From Streptomyces eurocidicus (GTDB lineage: Bacteria > Actinomycetota > Actinomycetes > Streptomycetales > Streptomycetaceae): a DNA stretch of 64,000 nt. The stretch's first letter is position 1; the number at the start of each line of letters is the position of its first letter. Positions 35,627 through 50,128 of the stretch are shown here, piece by piece. The notes beneath the pieces were generated by a model. It was not told the DNA's origin. It saw nothing but the letters and a program-made list of their open reading frames with translations, and did no database searches. The stretch covers positions 62,001-126,000 of the forward strand of contig NZ_LGUI01000001.1 of the NCBI RefSeq assembly GCF_002891295.1. Direction: 5' to 3'. The position numbers and the translations under genes were made by a program.

Positions 35627-37432
35627 GTGCCGCTGAACCGGAGAAACTTTCTGGGGCGTACCGCTGCGACGGGTGCGGGGGTCGCGCTCGTGGGCTCGGT
35701 GGGGGTGGCGGGTGCCGGTCCGGCCGGGGCGCGGGAGCCGGGGCGCGGTGCGCGGCGCTACGCGTTCACGGTGATGGGCACGACGGATCTGCACGGGAAC
35801 GTCTTCAACTGGGACTACTTCACCGATGCGGAGTTCGACGACAAGGCGCACAACGATGTGGGGCTGGCGAAGATCTCGACGCTGGTGGATCAGGTGCGGG
35901 CGGCGAAGGGGCGGCGGAACACGCTGCTCATCGACGCGGGTGACACGATTCAGGGTACGCAGCTGTCGTATTACTACGCCAAGGTGGATCCGATCACGCG
36001 GAAGCACGGTCCGGTGCATCCGATGGCGCAGGCGATGAACGCGATCGGCTATGACGCGGCGGCGCTGGGGAACCATGAGTTCAATTACGGCATTCCGGTG
36101 CTGCGGAAGTTCGAGGAGCAGTGTGATTTCCCGCTGCTGGGGGCGAACGCGCTGGATGCGAGGACGCAGCGGCCGGCGTTTGCTCCGTATGTGATGAAGC
36201 GGGTGCGGACGCCGTTCGGCCGTGATGTGAAGGTGGCGGTGCTGGGGCTGACCAATCCGGGGATCGCGATCTGGGACAAGGCGAACGTCCAGGGGAAGAT
36301 GACGTTCCCGGGGCTGGAGGAGCAGGCGGCGAAGTGGGTGCCGCGGCTTCGGTCGATGGGCGCGGACGTGGTGATCGTGTCGGCGCATTCGGGTTCGAGC
36401 GGTACGTCGTCCTACGGTGATCAGTTGCCGTATGTGGAGAACGCGGCGGCGCTGGTGGCGAAGCAGGTGCCGGGGATCGACGCGATTCTGGTGGGGCACG
36501 CGCACACGGAGATTCCCGAGTACCGGGTGGCGAACAAGAAGACGGGTAAGGAGGTCGTGCTCTCGGAGCCGTTGAAGTGGGGGCAGCGGCTGACGCTGTT
36601 CGACTTCGGTCTGGTGTGGGAGCGCGGTTGCTGGCGGGTGGAGTCGGTGTCGGCGAAGGTGCTGAACTCGAATTCGGTGCCGGAGGACAAGAAGATCACC
36701 GGGTTGCTGCGTGATGAGCACGAGAAGGTCGTGGCGTATGTGAACCAGGTGATCGGTACGTCGACGGCGGCGATGAGCGCGGCGGAGGCTCCGTACAAGG
36801 ACACGCCGATCATCGACTTCATCAATCATGTGCAGGCGGAGACGGTGCGGGGGGCGCTGGCGGGGACGGCGTACGCGTCGCTGCCGGTGCTGTCGCAGGC
36901 GTCGTGCTTCTCGCGTACGGCGGCGGTGCCGGCGGGCAAGGTGACGATCCGTGAGGTGGCGGGGCTGTATCCGTTCGAGAACACCCTGGAGGCACGGGTG
37001 CTGACGGGTGCGCAGCTGCGGGAGTATCTGGAGTTCTCGGCGCGGTACTACGTGCGGACGGCTGCGGGTGGTGCGGTGGATCCGGCGAAGCTGACGAATG
37101 CGGAGAGCATTCCGGATTACAACTATGACGCGGTCAGCGGCCTCTCCTACGAGATCGACATCGCGAAGGCGCCGGGGTCGCGGATCGCGAAGCTGTCGTT
37201 CGACGGGAGGCCACTGGATGACGCGGCGCAGTTCGTACTGGCGGTGAACAACTACCGGGCGAGTGGTGGGGGGAATTTCCCGCACGTCGCGCGGGCGAAG
37301 CAGGTGTGGGCGAATTCGGAGGAGATCCGTAACACGATCATCTCGTGGGTGAAGGCGCAGGGGTCGATCGACGTGAGCCGGTTCGCGTCAGTGGACTGGA
37401 AGCTGACGCGGGATGGTGCGCCGGTCTTCTGA
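35627..37432 (+). CDS. Tat-exported 5'-nucleotidase / metallophosphatase
   Basis: A 601-aa secreted enzyme. GTG 35627 has GGGGAGA upstream and gives MPLNRRNFLGRTAATGAGVA, a twin-arginine signal (RRNFLG) cleaved near AGA-R. The metallophosphatase domain has MGTTDLHGNVF, IDAGDTIQG, ALGNHEFNYG and LVGHAHTEIP, all metal ligands. A 5'-nucleotidase C-terminal domain (about 390-570) ends with VNNYRASGGGNFP, which binds the base. It probably releases phosphate and nucleosides from extracellular nucleotides. Its last 45 bases overlap the convergent hydroxylase gene. Confidence 0.95.
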   Translation: MPLNRRNFLGRTAATGAGVALVGSVGVAGAGPAGAREPGRGARRYAFTVMGTTDLHGNVFNWDYFTDAEFDDKAHNDVGLAKISTLVDQVRAAKGRRNTLLIDAGDTIQGTQLSYYYAKVDPITRKHGPVHPMAQAMNAIGYDAAALGNHEFNYGIPVLRKFEEQCDFPLLGANALDARTQRPAFAPYVMKRVRTPFGRDVKVAVLGLTNPGIAIWDKANVQGKMTFPGLEEQAAKWVPRLRSMGADVVIVSAHSGSSGTSSYGDQLPYVENAAALVAKQVPGIDAILVGHAHTEIPEYRVANKKTGKEVVLSEPLKWGQRLTLFDFGLVWERGCWRVESVSAKVLNSNSVPEDKKITGLLRDEHEKVVAYVNQVIGTSTAAMSAAEAPYKDTPIIDFINHVQAETVRGALAGTAYASLPVLSQASCFSRTAAVPAGKVTIREVAGLYPFENTLEARVLTGAQLREYLEFSARYYVRTAAGGAVDPAKLTNAESIPDYNYDAVSGLSYEIDIAKAPGSRIAKLSFDGRPLDDAAQFVLAVNNYRASGGGNFPHVARAKQVWANSEEIRNTIISWVKAQGSIDVSRFASVDWKLTRDGAPVF

Positions 37433-38898
37433 GGTGGTGCGCTGGGGCCGTGGCTGTGGTCGCGGCTCCAGCCCGAAGGTGGTGAAGGCGGTCCGCTCCG
37501 GGAGGGGGTAGACCGTCTTCTTCGTGAGGGCGTTGAGGATGACGGCGCTGCGCCAGGCGGCGAGGCCGAGGTCGGGGGTGCCGACGCCGTGGGTGTGCTG
37601 TTCGGCGTTCTGGACGTGGACGGCGCCGGTGACGAGTGGGTCGAGGACGAGGCGGTGGTGCTCGTCGATGCGGGGGCGGTCGCTGTGGTCGCGGCGGACG
37701 TAGGGGTCGAGGGCGGCGAGGAGGGTCTCGGTGCGGCGTTCGCGGTAGCCGGTGGCGAGGACGACGGCGTCGGTGGTGATGCGGGAGCGGGCGCCTTGCT
37801 GGGCGTGTTCGAGGTGGAGTTCGACGCGGGTGGTGCCGACGCGGCCGGCGGTGCGGACGAAGACTCCTGGGGTGAGGACGGTGTCGGGCCAGCCGCCGTG
37901 GAGGCTGCGGCGGTAGAGCTCTTCGTGGATGTCGGAGAGGGTGCCGGCGGCGATGCCCCGGTGCAGCTGCCATTGCTGGGGCAGGAGCTGGTTGCGGACG
38001 GCTTCGGGGAGGGCATGGAAGTAGCGCGTGTAGTCGGGGGTGAACTGTTCGAGGCCGAGCTTGCTGTATTCCATGGGGGCGAAGGCGGGGGTGCGGGCGA
38101 GCCAGTGGAGCTTCTCGCGGCCCGCCGGGCGGTTGCGGAGAAGGTCGAGGAAGACCTCGGCGCCGGACTGGCCCGAGCCGATGACGGTGATGTGGTCGGC
38201 GGCGAGGATGCGCTCGCGGTGGTCGAGGTAGTCGGCGGAGTGGATGACGGGGACGGTGGGGGCCTCGGCGAGGGGGCGGAGGGGTTCGGGGATGTGGGGT
38301 GTGGTACCGACGCCGAGGACGAGGTTGCGGGCGTAGGCGCGGCCGAGGGCCTCGGCTTCGCCGTCGGCGTCGAGCTGGGTGTAGTCGATCTCGAAGAGGT
38401 TGCGTTCGGGGTTCCAGCGGAGGGCGTCGATCTGGTGGCCGAAGTGGAGATCGGGGAGGGACTGGCTGACCCAGCGGCAGTAGGCGTCGTATTCGGCGCG
38501 CTGGATGTGGGAGCGCTCGGCGAAGTAGAAGGGGTAGAGGCGTTCCCGGGTCTTGAGGTAGTTGAGGAAGCTCCAGGGGCTGGTGGGGTCGGCGAGGGTG
38601 ACGAGGTCGGCGAGGTAGGGGACCTGGAGGCTGGTGCCGTCGATGAGGAGGCCGGGGTGCCAGCGGAAGGTGGGGGTCTGGTCGTAGAAGGCGGTGCGGA
38701 GTCCGGGGACGCCGTGGGCGAGGGCGGCGAGGGAGAGGTTGAAGGGCCCGATCCCGATGCCGGCGAGGTCGAGGGGCTGGTCGGGGGTGGTGCGGGGGCC
38801 GTTGCCGTGGGTGGTGTCGGGGCGGGCGGTGGATCCGTTGGGCGGGGTGGCGGGGTGCCGGGCCCGGGGGTGTTCTTCGCTGGTTTGGCTGCGCTCAT
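37388..38898 (-). CDS. Lysine/ornithine N-hydroxylase (siderophore-type FAD monooxygenase), N-terminal frameshift
   Basis: The body matches IucD/PvdA/DesB enzymes that hydroxylate the side-chain amine of Lys, Orn or a diamine for hydroxamate siderophores. It has FAD motif DLAGIGIGPFNLSLAALA, FRWHPGLLIDGTSLQVPYLA, NADPH motif ITVIGSGQSGAEVFLDLL, and DAVVLATGYRERRTE near the C-terminus. The natural start appears to be ATG 38898 (MSAAKPAKN), which overlaps the upstream stop by ATGA. That ATG is out of frame with the body: one extra C in the C5 tract at 38866-38870 would join them. The only in-frame start is GTG 39271, through Pro-rich junk. No siderophore synthetase is nearby. Confidence 0.8.
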
Positions 38899-39497
38899 CG
38901 AGGTGTCTGGCCTTCCATGAGGGTGGTGGGGGTGGTGGGGGCGGTGAGAGCGGTGAGGACGTTGAAGGAGTTGAAGGAGCGGGGGCCGGCGGGTCGGCCG
39001 TGAGGGGCGCCGGGGGCGGCCGGGGTGCGGCGGGCTCGTACGGGGGCGCCGGGGGCTTCGAGGGGGGTGCGGTCGGTCCGGGGGCCGGAGGAGGCCGGTA
39101 CGGGCACGCCGGAGACCGGTGCGGGCACGCCGGAAGCCGGTGCGGGCGTACCGAGGGCCGGTGCAGGTACGCCGGAAGCCGGTGCAGGCGCGCCGAGGGC
39201 CGGTACGGGCATGCCGGGAGCTTCGAGGGTGCCGCCGGCCCGGAGCCCGGAGGAGGCCGGTGCGGGTGCACCGGAGGCCGGTGCAGGCGTACCGAGGGCC
39301 GGTGCAGGCACGCCGGAGGCTTGGGGGCGGCTGCGGGCGCGGTGTCGGCCGTAGGTGTCGGCGGTCACGGCCGGACCGTGGAGGCACCCGGGGAGTGGCG
39401 TGCCGTCGCCGGAGGCGGCACAGGTGGCACAGGTGGCACCGGGGACGTCAACGGGGATGTCACCGTCGGTGGGGGCGGCGGTGTCGGGCCTGGACAA
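38895..39497 (-). CDS. Repeat-rich hypothetical ORF coupled to the N-hydroxylase
   Basis: A 200-codon frame opening at TTG 39497, with AAAGGGG 7 bases upstream, and closing at a TGA that overlaps ATG 38898. The N-terminus has MSRPDTAAPTDGDIPVDVPG and a Cys-containing part (GATCATCAASGDGTPLPGCL). The middle is heptad-like PAPASGV/PAPALGT repeats. The C-terminus ends LMEGQTPR. I recognise no domain. The coupling and ribosome site argue for translation, while the low-complexity repeat core argues for a decayed gene or leader; I cannot decide. Confidence 0.4.
   Translation of the reverse strand: MSRPDTAAPTDGDIPVDVPGATCATCAASGDGTPLPGCLHGPAVTADTYGRHRARSRPQASGVPAPALGTPAPASGAPAPASSGLRAGGTLEAPGMPVPALGAPAPASGVPAPALGTPAPASGVPAPVSGVPVPASSGPRTDRTPLEAPGAPVRARRTPAAPGAPHGRPAGPRSFNSFNVLTALTAPTTPTTLMEGQTPR
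39097..39329 (-). repeat. 21-bp minisatellite encoding PAPxSGV-type repeats
   Basis: Units like ccggtgcgggcacgccggaag recur about ten times with small changes, broken near 39210-39250 by a non-repeat insert. The unit is 21 bases (7 codons), so the frame survives copy-number change. Confidence 0.75.
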
Positions 39498-39713
39498 GGA
39501 GATGCCCCTTTTGGGTTGACTCGCGAGGTGCGCTGGGCGGATGCGGCACGGTCCACGTGGGCTCTGGTGAGCGCCAATTGCACCAAGTTACCGGCGCCGC
39601 ACGTTCGGTGACCTGGGCCGGGAAGGGTTTCGCTCGATGGGGGGACCGCCCTGCGGCGGCCGTGCAGCGGGTCTGCTAAAGGGGTGCGGGGCGACTCAGC
39701 GCGCCGCGTCGAC

Positions 39714-39719
39714 TAATCT
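39714..39719 (+). promoter_or_regulatory. -10 box placing transcription start on the ATG of the b-subunit gene
   Basis: TAATCT ends seven bases before A of ATG 39726, the distance expected from -10 to +1. No ribosome site lies before the ATG. GCGACT 17 bases upstream is a poor -35. Together this suggests a leaderless mRNA. Confidence 0.4.
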
Positions 39720-39725
39720 GCACCC

Positions 39726-40280
39726 ATGGCCATGAACTTTCTCGCTCTCGACGTAGGGCCGCTCAAGCCCGAGCCGGCGCCGCTCGTCCTCGCCGCCGTC
39801 CTCTTCTTCCTGCTCTTCGCCGTGATGGCGAAGGTCCTGCTGCCCCGGATCAACAAGGTCCTCGTCGAGCGCGAGAACGCCACGGAGGGGCGCTTCGACG
39901 AGGCGGAGGCGACGCGTGCCGAGGCGGCCCGCGTCCACGCCGAGTACCAGGAGCTGCTGGCGGAGGCCCGCCACGAGGCCGCGCGCCTGCGCCAGGAGTC
40001 GGTCGAGCAGGGCACGGCGATCATCGCCGAGCTGCGCGCCGAGGGTCAGCGCCAGCGCGAGGAGATCATCGCCGCGGGCCACGCCGTGATCGACGCCGAG
40101 CGCGCGGTGGCGGAGGCCGAGCTGCGTGAGCAGGTCGGCGTGCTCGCCACGGAGCTGGCCGGTCGCGTCGTCGGCGAGCCGGTCACGGACTTCGCGCGGG
40201 ACAACGGTGTGGTCGACCGTTTCCTGGAGGAGCTGCGGACGGCCGAGCCGTCCGATGTGACGGGTGAGAAGCGGGCCTGA
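39726..40280 (+). CDS. Orphan F-type ATP synthase b-subunit paralogue
   Basis: A 184-aa protein with one N-terminal membrane helix (LVLAAVLFFLLFAVMAKVLL) followed by a long charged coiled coil (RINKVLVERENATEGRFDEA to VAEAELREQVGVLATELAGR). The segments ARHEAARLRQE and RAEGQRQREEIIAAGHA are almost identical in pattern to Streptomyces AtpF, the peripheral stalk of F0F1. No other atp gene is present, so this is a second, stand-alone copy. It might replace AtpF under some condition or form another membrane stalk. An IS begins 26 bases after its stop. Confidence 0.9.
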   Translation: MAMNFLALDVGPLKPEPAPLVLAAVLFFLLFAVMAKVLLPRINKVLVERENATEGRFDEAEATRAEAARVHAEYQELLAEARHEAARLRQESVEQGTAIIAELRAEGQRQREEIIAAGHAVIDAERAVAEAELREQVGVLATELAGRVVGEPVTDFARDNGVVDRFLEELRTAEPSDVTGEKRA

Positions 40281-40306
40281 CGCCTGCTGCTGTTCGTTCG
40301 TACGGC

Positions 40307-40353
40307 GAGGCCCCCGGAACCTTGAGGTGACGCTGTTGGCGAATCCAGGGGCC
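40307..40353 (+). repeat. IS left terminal inverted repeat
   Basis: It starts gaggcccccggaaccttgag and matches the reverse complement of 42094-42140 with about eight mismatches over 47 bases. Confidence 0.8.
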
Positions 40354-40355
40354 TA

Positions 40356-42023
40356 CTACTTCGCCCCGTCGAGCTTTGGCTCGGCGGGGCGAAGTGCTGC
40401 GAAGTGGCTGGTGCGGGTGCGGGCTCGGGGTGTGCCGGTGAGGTGGGCGTCGATGCGGGCGAGGTTGATCGCGGCGCCGGTGAGTTGGTGTTGCAGGGCG
40501 GTCTTTGCGAGGCCGAGGTAGCGGGATCTGCGCAGGCCGCAGCGTTGGACGGCCTGGGAGATGGTGCCCTCGACGCCGGCGCGGGTCTTGTAGCGCTCCT
40601 TCCATGTGTCGGTGTCCTGGTCGGCGCGGGCCTGGCGGAGGGCTTCGTGTTCCTCGCGGGGCCGCAGGGTCAGGCGTCGGCCGGCGCTGGAGGTGGTGCA
40701 CTGCTCGCGGACCAGGCAGGGCTGGCAGTCGCTCTTGTTGAAGCGGACCCGGATCACGGGTGTGCCCTCGGGTGAGCGGTCGGGGTTCCAGCGGGTCGTG
40801 GTCCTGCCTCCGGGGCAGGTGACCTGCTCGTCCTTCCAGTCGATGGTGAAATCGGCGCCGGTGAATCCGCCGCCCGCGGCGGTCTGGGGGCTGACGGCCA
40901 GGGCGGCTGGGCCAGTGAGCGTGATGCTGTACTCGCGGCGGGCGTGGACAAGCGCATGCGCGTCGACGTATCCGGCGTCGACCAGGTGCTCGCCGGGCAG
41001 ACGGCCCGCTTCGGCAAGCCGGGCGTGCACGGGCTCGGTCATCGACACGTCGGGCACCGTTGCGTCGGTGGTGGCCACGTTGGTGATCAGGTTCGGGGCG
41101 TCCTCTTCGCAGGTCTCGGTGAGGTGGACCTTGTATCCGGCCCAGGTGGTGTCCCGCTTGACGCTGTTGCGTGCCTCAATGTCGTAAGGGTTGACCAGGC
41201 AGGTTGCGCCTGGCGGCCGGTCTTTTGGGTCCCGCCGCCTCACCTCGCCTTCGACCTGGTGGAAGTTCTGCACCCACATCTGCCGCAGGTGCTCCACCTG
41301 GGGCAGCGTCCGCAGTTCTTGCGGTGCCTGCGTGGACCAGACGGCCTGGAGCAGCCGCATCCCGTCCCGGCCGACCAGTAGCCCCATCTCCTCCCGTGCG
41401 GTGCGGGCCTTGGGGAGCCGGGAATCCTCGGCCCTGGTGGCGTAGTGCTTGAACCAGTCGGGCTCGGCCACCTGCACCAGCCAGTCCGGGGCGGCCTGTG
41501 CCAGGGCGTTCAACGCCGACCGCAAGGTCTCCGCGACCCGTTCCAGCCAGTTGACATCCCGGGCCGCCGTCCACACGTGGGTGGAGTCGGTCCTCGCCCG
41601 GCCGGCTGTCTTAAGCAGCCCTTTCTCCCCGGCCGCAGCGAGGATGCCGTCCAGGACGCGCCGTCCGGCGTCCGCCTCCACCAGTCGGTCCCGGAACTCC
41701 GACAGCACCGAGAAGTCGAATCCGGGATCACCCAGTTCCAGCCCGAGCGCGTATTTGAAGTCGATCCTCGCCCGCACCGCCTCCGCCGCCTGCCGGTCGG
41801 TGAGTCCTTCCACGAACTGCAACACCAGCACCAGCGCTAACCGCCCCGGTGACCAGGCCGGCTTCCCCCGCACCGGGAACAGGTCCGCGAACTCCTCGTC
41901 GTGGAACAACGGCCCCAACTCGTCCCGGACCCGGATCGCCAGGCTGCCTCTGGGGAACGCGGCCCGCGCCACCCGCACCGTCTCCGCCGGAACCTCGCTC
42001 GGCCCGCTCGGCTGCATCGACAC
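40356..42023 (-). CDS. IS1182-family transposase
   Basis: A 555-aa DDE transposase. GTG 42023 gives MSMQPSGPSEVPAETVRVAR, matching the usual MSMQP start of relatives; GTG 42038 would add five codons. DUF772/InsH N-terminal region FPRGSLAIRVRDELGPLFHD and LTDRQAAEAVRARIDFKYAL are followed by the catalytic region with GRARTDSTHV, DAGYVDAH and the RAGVEGTISQAVQRCGLRRS segment holding the glutamate, plus a CxxC...C cluster (CQPCLVREQC). The frame is intact. Confidence 0.92.
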   Translation of the reverse strand: MSMQPSGPSEVPAETVRVARAAFPRGSLAIRVRDELGPLFHDEEFADLFPVRGKPAWSPGRLALVLVLQFVEGLTDRQAAEAVRARIDFKYALGLELGDPGFDFSVLSEFRDRLVEADAGRRVLDGILAAAGEKGLLKTAGRARTDSTHVWTAARDVNWLERVAETLRSALNALAQAAPDWLVQVAEPDWFKHYATRAEDSRLPKARTAREEMGLLVGRDGMRLLQAVWSTQAPQELRTLPQVEHLRQMWVQNFHQVEGEVRRRDPKDRPPGATCLVNPYDIEARNSVKRDTTWAGYKVHLTETCEEDAPNLITNVATTDATVPDVSMTEPVHARLAEAGRLPGEHLVDAGYVDAHALVHARREYSITLTGPAALAVSPQTAAGGGFTGADFTIDWKDEQVTCPGGRTTTRWNPDRSPEGTPVIRVRFNKSDCQPCLVREQCTTSSAGRRLTLRPREEHEALRQARADQDTDTWKERYKTRAGVEGTISQAVQRCGLRRSRYLGLAKTALQHQLTGAAINLARIDAHLTGTPRARTRTSHFAALRPAEPKLDGAK

Positions 42024-42044
42024 CCGCACCCACCCCACACGACA

Positions 42045-42087
42045 ACGTCGGCCTTCAAGACCACAACCGGGTCTTGAAGGCCGACGT
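42045..42087. promoter_or_regulatory. 16-bp perfect hairpin just upstream of the transposase
   Basis: acgtcggccttcaaga (42045-42060) pairs exactly with tcttgaaggccgacgt (42072-42087) around an 11-base loop, between the right IS end and the transposase start. Such hairpins in ISs can block read-through transcription or translation from outside. That role is inferred. Confidence 0.6.
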
Positions 42088-42093
42088 CACGCG

Positions 42094-42140
42094 AGCCCCT
42101 GAATTAACCAACAGCGTCCCTTGAGGGTTCCGGGGGCCTC
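42094..42140 (-). repeat. IS right terminal inverted repeat
   Basis: On the minus strand it reads gaggcccccggaaccctcaa..., pairing with the left end at 40307-40353. Confidence 0.8.
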
Positions 42141-42164
42141 GCCGTTTCGTGTGTACGGATGGGG

Positions 42165-42329: not shown

Positions 42330-45236
42330 CTACCCCTGGGCCGCCCTGATCTTCAGCGCGCGGTCGAGGTCGTCCAGCTGGTCGGCCAGCTTGCGGCGGA
42401 GGGCGGGCGTGGGCCCGTCCGTGCGGAGGCACTCCTCGCCCAGTTCGCGCGTGCGCTCCTCGACGAGGGCGTACGGGAAGCCGTGGCGGCCGGCGAGGTC
42501 GGCGAGGGCCGGGCCGCGGCGGGTGGCGAGGGCGACCGCGTCGGTGTAGTAGCGGTCGCGGTAGGGACGTACGAGATCGAGCTGCTCGGGCTGCCAGAAG
42601 CCCTGGGCGGTGGCGGTGAAGAGGTAGTTCGAGAGGTCGTCGCGGCCGTACATGGCCTCCCAGGCGGCTTCCTTGGCCGCCGTGCCGGGCAGGGCGGCGT
42701 GGCAGCGGGCGGCGCCTTCCCGGCCGGTGGCGCTGGGGTCGCGGACGAGCTCGGCGTCGATGGCGGCGGGGGTGGTGGCCCCGAGGACGGCGAGGCGGGT
42801 GAGGACGCGCCAGCGCAGCTCGGGGTCGAGGGCGGGCCCGCCGGGGACGGTGCCGTCGCGCAGCCAGGCGTGGAGGGTGTCGGGGTCGGTGCCGCTGTCG
42901 ACGAGGGTGCGGACGGCGGTCAGACGGATGCCCCGGCGGTCGCCTCCGGTCCCGCCGCCTTCCGTACGGGCGAGCACGTCGTGGCAGAGGTCGGCGAGGA
43001 GGGCGAGGGCGGCGGGCCGGGCGGCCGGGGAGACGTAGCGGTCGGCGATCTGGTGGCGGGCGAAGGCGAGGACTCCCCCGGTGATCGCGGTGTCCGTCTC
43101 GTGCGGGAGGTGGGCGCGGGCGGCGTCGAGGTAGGCGGCGGGGGCGAGCTCGCCGTCCCGGACCATGTCGCGGGCGGCGTTCCAGAGCACGGCGCGGCCG
43201 AGGGCGTCCGGGAGGCCGGAGAGGGCGCGCAGGGCGGTGTCCCAGGAGGCGGTGTCGAGCCGGACCTTGGCGTAGGTGAGGTCGCCGTCGTTGAGGAGGA
43301 GCAGGTCGGGCCGCCGCCCGGGGAGGTCGAGGGTGTGGGTGCCGCCGCCGGCGGGGAGGTCGGTGGCGACGCGGTCGCGGAGGACGAGCGCGTGGTCGTC
43401 GCCGGGGGCTGCGTCGTAGAGGCCGAGGAGCAGGTGGTGGGGCCGGGTGCCGTCGTGGCGGAGGTCGAGGCGCCAGGTGGTGGGGGCGGGGTCCGGGGTG
43501 GGTGTCGCGGTCGCGGGGTCCGGGGTCCCGGCGGGGTCCAGGGGCCCGGCGGACTCCAGGCTCCCGGCGGACTCCAGGGCTCCGGCGGGGTCCGAGGCCC
43601 CAGCGGGCTCCAGAACCCCAGCGAGGTTCGGGGTCCCAGCAGCGTCTGCGGCCCCAGCAGGTTGCCGGATCCCGGCGGCCTCCGTCGCGGCCGGTACGGG
43701 CTCTGCGGCAGCCCTGCCCGGTGCGGTGCCCATGGCGCCCGGCGCGCCGCCCGTGGCGGTACCGGGGCCCGCTTCCGGGGCTCCCTCCGGAGTGACACCG
43801 GACTCGGGCTCGGACCCCGGCGCGCCGGCCGTGGCGGCCTCAGGGGCTGTGGTCGGCGTCCCGTCCCGCGCGTCGACGCGCGGGACGACCGTGTCGACGC
43901 CGCTCGTGCGCAGCCAGGTGTCGGCCCAGGTGTGGACGTCGCGGGTGGAGGCGCGGCCGAGGGAGTCGAGGAAGTCGGCGAGGGTGGCGTTGCCGAAGCG
44001 GTGGCGGGTGAAGTGCTCGTTGATGCCGGCGAGGAAGTCCTTCTCGCCGAGCCAGGCGACGAGCTGACGGAGGGCGGAGGCCCCCTTCGCGTAGGAGATG
44101 CCGTCGAAGTTGAGGAGTGCGGAGGCGGTGTCGTGGACGGCGCCGGGCGCGGGGGCGACGGGGTGGGTGGAGGGGCGCTGGTCGGCGTCGTAGCCCCAGC
44201 CCTTGCGGGCGACGGCGAAGTCGGTCCAGGTGCCGGAGAAGCGGGTGGCCTCGGAGAGGACCTGGTAGCCCATGTACTCGGCGAAGGACTCGTTGAGCCA
44301 GATGTCGTCCCACCAGCGGAGGGTGACCAGGTCGCCGAACCACATGTGGGCCATCTCGTGGGCGATCACGACGCCGCGCGTCTGGCGTTCGGTGTCGGTG
44401 ACGGCGGAGTGGAAGACGAACTCGTCGCGGAAGGTGACGAGGCCGGGGTTCTCCATGGCGCCGGCGTTGAACTCGGGGACGAACGCCTGGTCGTAGGAGT
44501 CGAAGGGGTACGGCTCGTCGAAGATCTCGTGGTAGCGGTCGAAGCAGCGGCGGGTGATGTCGAGGATCTCCTCGGCGTCCGCGTCGAGATGGGCGGCGAG
44601 GGAGCGGCGGCAGTGCAGGGCGAAGGGCAGGCCCGCGTGCTCGGTGCGGACGGAGTGCCAGGGGCCCGCGGCGAAGGCGACGAAGTAGGTGCTGAGCGGC
44701 TTGGTGGTGGCGAGCCGCCAGCGGCCTTCGGCGGGGTCGCCCACGCGCTCGGCGACGGCGTTGCCGAGGACGGTCCAGGCCGGAGGCGCCGTGACGGTGG
44801 CGTCGAAGACGGCCTTGAGGTCGGGCTGGTCGAAGGCGGCGAAGACGCGCTGGACGTCTTCGAGGAACGCCTGGGTGTAGAGGTAGGTCTCGCCGTCGGC
44901 GGGGTCGGTGAAGCGGTGCATGCCCTCGCCGGTGCGGGAGTAGCGCATGTCGGCCTCGACGCGCAGTTCGTGCGGGCCGGGGGTGAGGCCGGGCAGGGGC
45001 AGGCGGTTGTCGTCGAGGGTGCCGGGGTCGAGGGGCCGGCCGTCGAGGGTGGCGCGGCGCAGGGTGGCCGGCCTGAGTTCGGCGAAGGTGTCGCCCGCCT
45101 GGCGTGCGGTGAAGCGGATGACGGTGGTGGAGCCGAAGAGCTCGTCGCCGCGGGTGAGGTCGAGGTCGACCGTGTAGCGGTGGACGTCGAGGAGCAGGGC
45201 TCGGGTCTGTGCTTCTTCGCGTGTCAGTACGGGCAT
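42330..45236 (-). CDS. pepN: Aminopeptidase N (M1 family) with a repetitive mid-protein insertion
   Basis: A 968-aa zinc aminopeptidase removing N-terminal residues from peptides in the cytoplasm. Exopeptidase motif NAGAMENPG (about 257), zinc motif IAHEMAHMWFGD (about 293) with the third ligand in WLNESFAEY, and a C-terminal ERAP1-like helical domain are present. It is about 110 residues longer than the family norm: residues about 455-585 are a Pro/Ala/Gly/Glu-rich insertion (PDPATATPTPDPAP type) before TTWRLDLRHDG. The start is ATG 45236. Confidence 0.95.
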   Translation of the reverse strand: MPVLTREEAQTRALLLDVHRYTVDLDLTRGDELFGSTTVIRFTARQAGDTFAELRPATLRRATLDGRPLDPGTLDDNRLPLPGLTPGPHELRVEADMRYSRTGEGMHRFTDPADGETYLYTQAFLEDVQRVFAAFDQPDLKAVFDATVTAPPAWTVLGNAVAERVGDPAEGRWRLATTKPLSTYFVAFAAGPWHSVRTEHAGLPFALHCRRSLAAHLDADAEEILDITRRCFDRYHEIFDEPYPFDSYDQAFVPEFNAGAMENPGLVTFRDEFVFHSAVTDTERQTRGVVIAHEMAHMWFGDLVTLRWWDDIWLNESFAEYMGYQVLSEATRFSGTWTDFAVARKGWGYDADQRPSTHPVAPAPGAVHDTASALLNFDGISYAKGASALRQLVAWLGEKDFLAGINEHFTRHRFGNATLADFLDSLGRASTRDVHTWADTWLRTSGVDTVVPRVDARDGTPTTAPEAATAGAPGSEPESGVTPEGAPEAGPGTATGGAPGAMGTAPGRAAAEPVPAATEAAGIRQPAGAADAAGTPNLAGVLEPAGASDPAGALESAGSLESAGPLDPAGTPDPATATPTPDPAPTTWRLDLRHDGTRPHHLLLGLYDAAPGDDHALVLRDRVATDLPAGGGTHTLDLPGRRPDLLLLNDGDLTYAKVRLDTASWDTALRALSGLPDALGRAVLWNAARDMVRDGELAPAAYLDAARAHLPHETDTAITGGVLAFARHQIADRYVSPAARPAALALLADLCHDVLARTEGGGTGGDRRGIRLTAVRTLVDSGTDPDTLHAWLRDGTVPGGPALDPELRWRVLTRLAVLGATTPAAIDAELVRDPSATGREGAARCHAALPGTAAKEAAWEAMYGRDDLSNYLFTATAQGFWQPEQLDLVRPYRDRYYTDAVALATRRGPALADLAGRHGFPYALVEERTRELGEECLRTDGPTPALRRKLADQLDDLDRALKIRAAQG
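43490..43735 (-). repeat. Degenerate tandem repeat inside pepN
   Basis: Units of about 15-18 bases built on (g/c)ccggcg(g)gg(g/a)tcc are repeated in frame and encode DPAGxxESAGxL-like motifs inserted between the catalytic and C-terminal parts of the aminopeptidase. Confidence 0.65.
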
Positions 45237-46987: not shown

Positions 46988-49900
46988 TTACACCCCCGCC
47001 TCCCACACCGTGAACCCGTCCAGCACGAACTCCGCCGTCCCCCCACCCCCCACCTTCCGCAACCCCACCCACGCCTCCCCGTCCCCCGGCGCCGTGAACT
47101 CGTACGCGTACGTGGCCGGTTCATGCGCCTCCGGCAGCTCCGTGCGGGCGAGTTCGCGAGGCTCGGGGGCATCGGTCCCGGTCACCCAGGCGTACTGCCC
47201 GGCGGTCTCGTTCTCGTAGCGGAAGGAGACCCGGTAGCGGCGGCCGGGGAGGAAGCGGACGGTGTGCGGGACCGTGCGGTAGACGAGGCCCTCGTTCTCG
47301 CCGCGTGACTTGAGGGACTGGCTGCCGTCGATGACGTCGTCGACGACCTTGCCGTTCCAGCCGCGCTGGGTGTAGGGCGCGTGCCGTTGCGCGATGTGGG
47401 TGCGCGGGTCCGTGGTGCCGCCCGCGTCGCCCTTGACGAAGGGGCCCCAGCCCTGGGGTACGTGTTCGAAGTCCTCGTGGAGGAGGGCTCCGGCGAGCGC
47501 GGACCGCCGGCCGGGGACGACGCGCAGGGCATCGAAGCGTACGCGGGCCCGCCCGGCCGCCGCGGTGAGCGTCAGGGTGGCGGGGCCGCCGCCTTCGGGC
47601 ACGGTGAACCAGGTGAACATGCGCTGGAAGCGGGTGCCGTGTTTGCGGTCCGCGGCCATGTGGTTGACGGCGGTGGAGGTGTCCGTCCAGTTGGCGGCGG
47701 TGACGCCGTCGGCGGTGCGGACCTCCAGGCCGGCCCGGCGCCGCTCCCCCGCGGTGGCGCCGACCTCGACCTGGACGGACGCGGCGTAGGTGCCGGGTCC
47801 GAGGCGGGCGAGCCGCCGGCTCACGGTGGCCGCCGCGCCGGAGCCGATGACGAGTTCGCTGTCGCCGAGGGGGCTGAGGGCGACGGCGGCGGGGCCGGTG
47901 ACCTGCCAGCCGTCGAGGGTGCCGGAGTGGAAGCCGGGGTCGTGCAGCGGGGTGCCCTCGCCCCAGGCGGGGTCGGCGAGGCGGCGGGTGGTGTCGCGGG
48001 TGAGGACGTAGGGCTGTCCGGCCGTGGCGTCCAGGGTGACCCGGCCGGCGCGCACGGGCAGTTCGCGGGTGTCGGCGCGGCCCTGGTCGGTGAGGCGGTG
48101 GAGGGTGACGGTGCGCCGTCCCGACCAGCCGCGGGGCAGGGTCCAGGTGGTGCGGCCGCCGTCGGGGTTGTAGTGGTAGAGCTTGGCCGGGTCGGTGGCG
48201 GAGCGGGGCTCCCAGGGCAGGAGGTAGCGCCCGGCCTCGTAGACGACGCGGCCGTCCGTGGTGATGCGGCGGGTGCCGTCGGCGTCGGAGACGGCGGTGC
48301 GGGTGGGGCCGTCGAAGGTGACGGTGTGCTCGGTCCAGGTGGTGATGGGGAACGCCTGGAGGTATTTGGCGGGGAGGTTGTCGGTCCACAGCAGGCGGTG
48401 GAAGGCGTGCCAGTCGGTCTTCCCCTGCCAGCCCGAGAAGGTGCCGAGTCTCGCGTGGCCGAGCAGGGGCCATTTGTCGGCGAAGACGTCCTTCTGGTGG
48501 TGGCGGATGAAGCGGATGAGGCGGGAGTTGATGCCGCGTGAGGTGTCGGGTCCGTAGTCGGTCTCATTGGCCCAGTGGGCCCACAGGCTCGATCTCTCCA
48601 GGCCGTGGCCCCATTCGGTGGTGATCCGCCAGCCTTGTTCGCGCAGGACGCGCTGGAGCCGGTCGGAGTTCCAGCCGGATTCGCGGAAGACGTCGATGTA
48701 GAGGGTGTCGAGAGCGGGGTCGGTCTCCTCGCGCAGCCGCCGGAAGCGGCGGGCGATGTCGCCGGAGACCAGGTCACGGCGGGCGTCGATGCGGTACGAC
48801 TGGTCGAGCCAGTCCCACTGCCGGTCGTTCTCGTCCACCAGGGTCTCGGAGAAGGCGTGCGCGACCGGGTACGACTCGGTGGTGTTGACGTGCACGGCGA
48901 AGTCGCTGTTCCAGCGCTTGCCGGCGCGGAGCAGGGTGTTGAGGTCGGTGAGGCCGCCGGCGCGGGTGTTGTGGTTGCCGCCGTAGTCGGGGTGGGCGGA
49001 GTCGTGGCCTTCGGACTGGTAGCCCTTGAGGAGGGTGAACTGGCGGAGTCCGTCGGTGGCGAGGGCGATGCGCTTGATGTCGTCGAGGGTGGCGAGGAAG
49101 GGGTTGGTGGCCTGGCTCGCGAAGTTGAAGGGGATGTGGGGGACGACTCTGAGGTGTTGTTCGTCGGCGCCGAGGGGGTCGGTCATGATGTCGCGGAAGG
49201 CGATGGCGGCGTCCTGCCAGTCGGCCCGGCCGTCGCCGTTGCGGTCGCGGGTGACGATGACGGTCGCGTGGGGCAGGGGCTCGGTGTCGTGGAGCGGGGC
49301 GGTGGCGGCCCGGTGGGTCCAGGGGCCGCAGGTGAGCTGGATCTTGGTGTAGCCGGTGCGGGCGAGGGTCTGCCGGCCGAGGCGGCCGTTCTCCCAGGCG
49401 CTGCTCGCGTCGGGCCGGTCGTGGACGCTGTTGGTCTCGACTGCGGCGGCGAGTTCTCCGGTGGCGACGACGGCGTAGGCGCAGCCGACGGGTGCCGGGT
49501 CGGGGGGTGTGCCGGGGGCGGGGCGCAGATGGGTGTCGCCGCTCTTGGCCTTGTCGAGCTGGAGGCGGGCGGCGAGGAGCTCGGCGCCGGGCTGGGTGCT
49601 GCGGACGCTGAGCAGGGCGAGGCCGGGGAAGGCGAGGGTGCCGACGCGTAGGGCGGGGGTGTCGGCGATGCGGGTGATCTGCCAGTGGACGCGTGGGCCG
49701 GTGACGCGGATCTCGACGTCGAGGCGGGTGCCTCCGTCGAAGGCGAGGGTGTACGCGGCCCGGTCGCCGGTGCCGTCGGGGACGGTGGAGGTGACCCGGG
49801 GGGTGTACTCGGTGTCGCCGATGAGCACCGAGGTCACAGGGTCTTCCTGGGCGTGGAGTACGGCGCCGGTGGTGCGGTCGGTGTAGGAGATGACGCGGGG

Positions 49901-50128
49901 GAAGGCGGTGTCGACGCGTACGTCGAGTTCGGTGGAGCGGAGTACGGCCTCCGCCGGCGCGGTGGCGTGGGCGGTGGTGCCCATGAGGCCAGCGTTGAGG
50001 GCGGCGCCGAGGCCGGCGAGGGCGGCGCCGGCGACAAGGGCGCGGCGGCCGGGTCCGGCGGCGGCCGGGTCTTCCGGAATGGGCTCGGGGTCAGGCTCGG
50101 GACAGGGGTCGGCTCGGTCCACGGTCAC
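46988..50128 (-). CDS. Endo-alpha-N-acetylgalactosaminidase (GH101)
   Basis: A 1046-aa secreted glycosidase releasing the Gal-GalNAc disaccharide from mucin-type O-glycans. GTG 50128 has GGAGG upstream. A signal with RRALVAGAALAGLGAALNAG ends at THA-TAPA. The catalytic TIM barrel has LDTLYIDVFRESGWNSDRL (nucleophile Asp) and RITTEWGHGLERSSLWAHW (acid/base Glu), and the GH101 N-terminal beta-sandwich precedes it (YTDRTTGAVLHAQEDPVTSV). C-terminal carbohydrate-binding modules follow (about residues 700-1040, two jelly-roll-like). It is unusual for a soil bacterium and suggests host or fungal/animal glycoprotein use. Confidence 0.93.
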   Translation of the reverse strand: MTVDRADPCPEPDPEPIPEDPAAAGPGRRALVAGAALAGLGAALNAGLMGTTAHATAPAEAVLRSTELDVRVDTAFPRVISYTDRTTGAVLHAQEDPVTSVLIGDTEYTPRVTSTVPDGTGDRAAYTLAFDGGTRLDVEIRVTGPRVHWQITRIADTPALRVGTLAFPGLALLSVRSTQPGAELLAARLQLDKAKSGDTHLRPAPGTPPDPAPVGCAYAVVATGELAAAVETNSVHDRPDASSAWENGRLGRQTLARTGYTKIQLTCGPWTHRAATAPLHDTEPLPHATVIVTRDRNGDGRADWQDAAIAFRDIMTDPLGADEQHLRVVPHIPFNFASQATNPFLATLDDIKRIALATDGLRQFTLLKGYQSEGHDSAHPDYGGNHNTRAGGLTDLNTLLRAGKRWNSDFAVHVNTTESYPVAHAFSETLVDENDRQWDWLDQSYRIDARRDLVSGDIARRFRRLREETDPALDTLYIDVFRESGWNSDRLQRVLREQGWRITTEWGHGLERSSLWAHWANETDYGPDTSRGINSRLIRFIRHHQKDVFADKWPLLGHARLGTFSGWQGKTDWHAFHRLLWTDNLPAKYLQAFPITTWTEHTVTFDGPTRTAVSDADGTRRITTDGRVVYEAGRYLLPWEPRSATDPAKLYHYNPDGGRTTWTLPRGWSGRRTVTLHRLTDQGRADTRELPVRAGRVTLDATAGQPYVLTRDTTRRLADPAWGEGTPLHDPGFHSGTLDGWQVTGPAAVALSPLGDSELVIGSGAAATVSRRLARLGPGTYAASVQVEVGATAGERRRAGLEVRTADGVTAANWTDTSTAVNHMAADRKHGTRFQRMFTWFTVPEGGGPATLTLTAAAGRARVRFDALRVVPGRRSALAGALLHEDFEHVPQGWGPFVKGDAGGTTDPRTHIAQRHAPYTQRGWNGKVVDDVIDGSQSLKSRGENEGLVYRTVPHTVRFLPGRRYRVSFRYENETAGQYAWVTGTDAPEPRELARTELPEAHEPATYAYEFTAPGDGEAWVGLRKVGGGGTAEFVLDGFTVWEAGV

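Follow-up and report, generated by a model that had tools for sequence, protein, structure and literature searches.

A stand-alone, apparently leaderless paralogue of ATP synthase subunit b in Streptomyces eurocidicus and its candidate role as an alternative stalk subunit

The F1Fo ATP synthase of bacteria is usually treated as one fixed set of subunits per operon. In E. coli the C-terminal domain of subunit b contacts delta (PMC6131620). Cyanobacterial b and b' form functional heterodimers in E. coli, and in the same account the b' genes of bacteria are described as in-locus duplications (PMC4154653). In mycobacteria, as outlined in PMC8617483, b' pairs with a b-delta fusion and takes part in a fail-safe of the auto-inhibition of hydrolysis. 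The word 'Streptomyces' is absent from the main text of PMC4154653, a survey of ATP synthase gene duplications, and our literature searches, conducted mostly outside subscription journals, found no published description of a stand-alone Streptomyces b paralogue.

Here we describe such a gene from Streptomyces eurocidicus, found in a window of 64,000 nucleotides (the whole stretch of DNA that was analysed). A preliminary description of the window had proposed an orphan paralogue of AtpF, and the open reading frame, its coordinates and its likeness to AtpF proved right on translation and by a match to PF00430. The gene and the parts of its product are as follows:

39726..40280, + strand: orphan b-subunit gene, AtpF paralogue, 184 aa (PF00430, NF004412 and TIGR01144 matches)
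39774..39845, + strand: hydrophobic membrane helix, approximately residues 17-40, limits set by eye (alignment to AtpF and solved b chains)
39906..40178, + strand: long helix/coiled coil, residues 61-151 (alignments; AlphaFold2 helix 17-150)
40179..40235, + strand: C-terminal tail, residues 152-170, ending in VVDRFLEEL (aligned to the end of E. coli b, 6oqr_X)

Judged by profiles and alignments, the orphan has the AtpF design and is a real paralogue of the ATP synthase b subunit. It scored 74.6 bits against PF00430 (ATP-synt_B; E 1e-20), well over the gathering cut-off of 28, and 70.0 bits against the general b-subunit model TIGR01144 (cut-off 65.5). With 151.9 bits it fell narrowly short of the curated cut-off of 156 for the equivalog NF004412, the top NCBIfam model for the AtpF of its own genome, which scores 206.7. 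NF004412 scores of orphans from other genomes (see below) ran from 157.6 for L004, above the cut-off, through 131.6 (L053) and 131.1 (L132) to 97.2 (L057), and the last three did not reach the TIGR01144 cut-off. A phmmer search of the PDB matched 20 sequences, all of them ATP synthase b or b-delta chains. The alignment to E. coli b spans orphan residues 23-170 and reaches the last residue of 6oqr_X, so by alignment the tail is the counterpart of the E. coli b C-terminus, the site of delta docking; mycobacterial b chains (170-171 aa) align to residues 23-154 or 155 and stop near their own C-terminus. An AlphaFold2 model (24 sequences; mean pLDDT 79, pTM 0.32) consists of a helix at 17-150 followed by two short helices, and its Foldseek search against the PDB gave 0 matches, an uninformative outcome for a single long helix.

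The host genome (7.93 Mb, 18 contigs, 100% complete) contains one further strong b match, on contig C10, while the orphan lies on a separate contig, C18; a third match, at E 1.7, is noise. Using a reference streptomycete operon in tblastn, we found on C10, in order, atpI-like, a, c, b, delta, alpha, gamma, beta and epsilon genes. The same nine genes matched nothing in the 64-kb window except the orphan ORF. The claims that the paralogue stands alone and that no other atp genes are nearby are thus upheld, and the concern that this might be the only b subunit of the genome falls away, since the genome has the whole atp operon, a normal atpF included. The orphan is neither the operon-encoded AtpF, which would sit between atpE and atpH, nor an in-locus b' of the AtpG type lying beside atpF. 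It resembles the b' of cyanobacteria, chloroplasts and alpha-proteobacteria in being a second, diverged b gene beside a normal b in the genome, but it is not linked to the normal gene, is apparently leaderless and arose inside the b lineage of Streptomycetaceae.

Compared with its own AtpF, the orphan is identical at 88 of 159 residues (residues 12-170, approximately 55%), most densely in the coiled coil (40/60). The near-identical segments pointed out earlier are real, as AtpF carries ARHEASRLRQE and EGRRQREEIIAAGHA. The two proteins share the membrane helix, the coiled coil, the C-terminal DRFL segment (found in 36/36 AtpFs examined) and a core free of indels; the orphan differs in lying outside the operon, in lacking a Shine-Dalgarno sequence, in its shorter N-terminus and in its position in a separate clade. 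The residue preceding PLxP is G in 61/62 orphans versus N in 32/36 AtpFs.

The orphan is one of a family. Among 199 genomes of the genus (its own included), 31 gave two b matches with E values no greater than 1e-8, and of the remaining 168, 167 had one match and a single genome, 79% complete, had none. The other 30 two-match genomes were searched anew and their second copies fetched with 1.5 kb on each side, contig permitting; these second copies had no atpE or atpH in the fetched stretch, and the first copy of each of the 31 genomes had both. In G191 the second copy is a fragment. When a family profile was used, at least 51 of 150 Streptomycetaceae genomes had two or more b matches (hand count from the table), including 33/38 in the sister genus g14, 3/3 in g2, 4/4 in g5, 3/3 in g13 and 1/35 in g7; flanks were examined for part of these copies (19 of the 33 in g14). 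All of these genome counts are lower bounds because scoring covered the best candidates per genome (17, 24 or 9). Beyond Streptomycetaceae, at least 9 of 354 genomes of the class had two or more matches. Eight of these (all but G495) were re-examined: five have pairs that are adjacent and b/b'-like by position (G343, G349, G371, G403, G664) and two, G372 and G389, have the second match on another contig. We also noted two unlinked AtpF duplicates without a GPLxP start, L324 in G523 (another actinobacterial family) and L328 in G225 (Streptomycetaceae), the latter being a third b gene. Close relatives that carry the orphan are S. griseocarneus (two strains), S. hiroshimensis, S. triculaminicus and S. 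orinoci, which we take to be members of the former Streptoverticillium group.

A first tree was built from 62 orphans and 36 AtpFs (36 of 94 AtpF rows, the other 58 being left out), and in it a single branch (100/98) parts orphans from AtpFs. A second tree, of 46 orphans and 30 AtpFs after 16 near-duplicate orphans and 6 AtpFs were set aside, was rooted on 20 AtpFs of other actinobacterial families; both trees were built without L085, a fragment, and without 6 rows having atpH but no atpE. In the rooted tree the orphans form one clade (100/98) inside a clade with 28 Streptomycetaceae AtpFs (100/99), a placement that holds at the level of the joint clade and not beside any one AtpF; two AtpF rows from other families group with the outgroup. 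Since all orphans fall in one clade within the Streptomycetaceae b lineage, the simplest reading of the trees is one old duplication, early in that lineage. Losses, and perhaps transfers too, would explain the patchy presence. Orphan branches are long, which suggests that constraint is looser outside the group to which the window belongs.

A further difference from AtpF concerns the start of the message. The region upstream of the window orphan has no Shine-Dalgarno-like tetramer. The earlier proposal of a -10 box that sets the transcript start on the ATG is supported by the hexamer found there and by the recurrence of its spacing in the family:

39714..39719, + strand: TAATCT, a -10-like hexamer 6 nt upstream of the ATG; predicted promoter of a leaderless transcript (sequence; spacing kept family-wide)
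39726..39726, + strand: predicted transcript start, at the A of the ATG (inferred from the -10 position)

Allowing all spacings from 4 to 12 nt from the start, TAnnnT occurred in 42/61 orphans and always at exactly 6 (21 genes) or 7 (21 genes) nt, against an expectation of 2.8 and a maximum of 9 in 500 shuffles, the count being lowered by G098 and G685, whose chosen start probably lies one ATG too far upstream. Shine-Dalgarno-like tetramers were at chance level in the orphans (7/61 versus 10.8 expected). In 83 AtpF genes the picture was reversed: TAnnnT was found in 0/83 (6.8 expected) and SD-like tetramers in 82/83 (8.3 expected). A looser test, with TA opening the hexamer at the 6- or 7-nt spacing, gave 52/61 orphans (3.8 expected, maximum 10) versus 1/83 AtpFs. 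Expectations come from single-base shuffles of the same 60-nt upstream sequences, and kinship is partly handled by counting clusters at 65% identity: of 19 orphan clusters, 11 have TAnnnT, 7 have TA alone and 1 has neither. Orphan start codons are inferred; the test was run without L085 and L187 (no start assigned), genera g23, g29, g49 and g61, rows with a repeated upstream sequence and AtpF rows lacking an assigned start. The -10 spacing in the window and across the family thus supports a leaderless orphan gene. Leaderless mRNAs are defined by a 5'-UTR of <9 nt, and S. coelicolor promoters use TANNNT, with approximately 21% of primary TSSs giving leaderless mRNA (PMC4895711), so that leaderlessness as such is ordinary. 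To judge from these upstream regions, what is not ordinary is that one paralogue family has kept the signature while its parent gene is SD-led. By eye, a CAACTnTCG-like stretch recurs in the upstream regions of one orphan group (L053-L055, L077, L078, L151; loosely in that of L052 too), about 35 nt ahead of the -10 box, and several short-tail orphans have GGGTA at the -10 position; possibly these mark a regulator site or another sigma factor.

An insertion sequence follows the orphan, as the preliminary description had claimed; the distance from the stop codon is 21 bases and not 26 when the outer inverted repeats are taken as the ends:

40302..42145, no strand: IS element with 51-bp imperfect inverted ends, 86% identical, and TTCGT (5 bp) on both sides (outer inverted repeats)
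40356..42038, - strand: IS transposase (DDE; PF13751 1.3e-27, PF05598 4.1e-18)

The element landed just downstream and left the ORF intact. In all four relatives that were folded, a terminator-like hairpin lies 3' of the orphan stop (z -3.8 to -5.6), which makes the orphan look like a single-gene unit there. In the window the 70 nt past the stop have no unusual structure (z 0.3) and a strong hairpin occurs just inside the IS end (z -6.8). The IS inserted where the four relatives have the hairpin and displaces it.

Seven relatives share the orphan locus with the window (a group of 8 genomes), so that conservation across species, which the preliminary description had suggested checking, is seen both for the stand-alone family and for the site. 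Between the window orphan and four close orthologs dN/dS was 0.13, 0.26, 0.30 and 0.28; the AtpFs of the same four pairs gave 0.28, 0.26, 0.54 and 0.42, and orphan pairs with the more distant G058 gave 0.46-0.58. On these estimates, the window's ortholog group is under purifying selection similar to that acting on AtpF. The dN/dS values and the shared locus rule out a pseudogene. They also bear on the idea that the orphan is a spare copy, redundant or in slow decay and without a role of its own, for which one could cite the patchy presence, one fragment (L085) and one early stop (G058). Given the AtpF-like selection in the window's group, the 62 of 63 distinct orphan rows that amount to more than a fragment, and the 18 of 19 sequence clusters that keep the TA of the -10 box at its usual distance from the start, we consider a spare copy very improbable.

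Chromosomal sites of the orphan differ between tree groups. Members of the window's group share their gene order, as do those of the larger short-tail group and of some sets in g14 and g13; elsewhere (e.g. L092, L102-L105) the order is not shared. Several of the loci are cut off by the edge of a contig. In the window's group, where neighbour orthologs were assigned by blastp, a lysine/ornithine monooxygenase gene of the siderophore type flanks the orphan on one side. A PLP decarboxylase gene lies between the two in 4/8 loci (G018, G060, G058, G330) and is absent in the window, G051, G035 and G692; at 37388-39500 the window has the monooxygenase gene, with GC-rich repetitive sequence replacing the decarboxylase gene. 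On the other side is an M1 aminopeptidase in 7/8 loci (absent in G692), past the IS in the window and past one further gene in G035. The window copy (42330-45236) has an Ala/Pro/Gly-rich insert between its M1 and ERAP1-like C-terminal domains, the interdomain gap being 441-646 as against 444-520 in L087. Two groups have M1 peptidases close to the orphan, but of differing types, and we take this to be chance rather than partnership. A GH101 endo-alpha-N-acetylgalactosaminidase gene is near the orphan in 7/8 loci of the group; in the window (46988-50128) it is next to an AraC-type regulator gene.

Could the orphan helix have been recruited to another membrane complex unrelated to ATP synthase? 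Such a role would suit a gene that is unlinked to atp genes, has long branches and has different neighbours in different groups. In the 56 orphan loci examined, which fall into seven tree groups, no partner gene was common to more than two groups, though; apart from b, four gene clusters are present in two groups, and the genes recurring within one group, among them an MFS transporter, a serine hydroxymethyltransferase and a mycothiol S-transferase, are not suggestive, so the neighbourhoods point to no other complex. Over the 132-residue core (residues 20-151 of the window orphan), moreover, 92 of the 98 aligned rows, orphans and AtpFs together, are free of indels, a pattern to be expected of helices that must keep register with the same stalk, and the window orphan keeps a delta-type tail. 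We regard recruitment elsewhere as quite unlikely. A core of constant length, together with the membrane helix and the delta-type tail, speaks for the stalk of ATP synthase, which we favour because of the core length and the lack of any gene shared by more than two groups.

The tail itself comes in two lengths. In 42/62 orphans, the window's included, it has at least 19 residues; the other 20 end 7-18 residues after the core, before the delta-docking segment. The short form includes G058, which has the window's gene order, and ends roughly where mycobacterial b' chains end, close to the point at which the phmmer match of the window orphan to mycobacterial b stops. The mycobacterial arrangement differs in its b-delta fusion: in 18 orphan-bearing genomes tested, delta is a single, separate gene locus, and the window orphan keeps its tail. 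None of the 18 has a second delta or a-subunit gene, so assembly of the orphan would use parts from the main operon; a second ATP synthase is unlikely as far as these two subunits go. One might suppose that the orphan pairs with AtpF and so reduces how much working F1Fo there is or how well it is coupled, for example in growth arrest; the short forms would then act as naturally occurring dominant-negative b subunits. A brake on assembly would be in keeping with the 20 orphans that lack the docking tail and keep the rest, with the separate, unlinked promoter and with the terminator-like hairpin of the four relatives; it sits less well with the tail of the window orphan and 41 others, and a heterodimer may need no more than one docking tail, the mycobacterial b'/b-delta stalk being an example. 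We think a brake unlikely.

The reading that we favor, with modest confidence, is that the orphan is an alternative b subunit, made from its own leaderless transcript, that enters the ordinary F1Fo probably paired with AtpF in the manner of b' and alters the stalk. A heterodimer with AtpF fits best because the short orphans could not dock delta alone and unequal b pairs have precedents; by this analogy the orphan is probably a b'-like partner. In cyanobacteria b and b', and in mycobacteria b' and b-delta, form heterodimeric stalks; for the orphan, pairing with AtpF is a proposal, already raised in the preliminary description, and a homodimer is the alternative. We infer expression, membrane insertion, pairing with AtpF, assembly and a regulatory effect along the following lines: the leaderless transcript would be regulated separately from the atp operon, the product would be built in as one of the two stalk helices with AtpF as the other, and under some condition the changed composition of the peripheral stalk would alter its stiffness or the control of hydrolysis. 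A more tentative extension, possible though somewhat doubtful, is that the dispersed leaderless b family of Streptomycetaceae swaps one F1Fo stalk helix by condition or development, the short forms being b' of the mycobacterial type and the message of this exchangeable stator part being translated by another route than that of the atp operon.

If this is true, an unlinked b subunit that is under selection and belongs to a family of single origin with its own translation signal would give streptomycetes a way to alter the stator of their chief energy enzyme, with a possible bearing on energy control in differentiation and antibiotic production.
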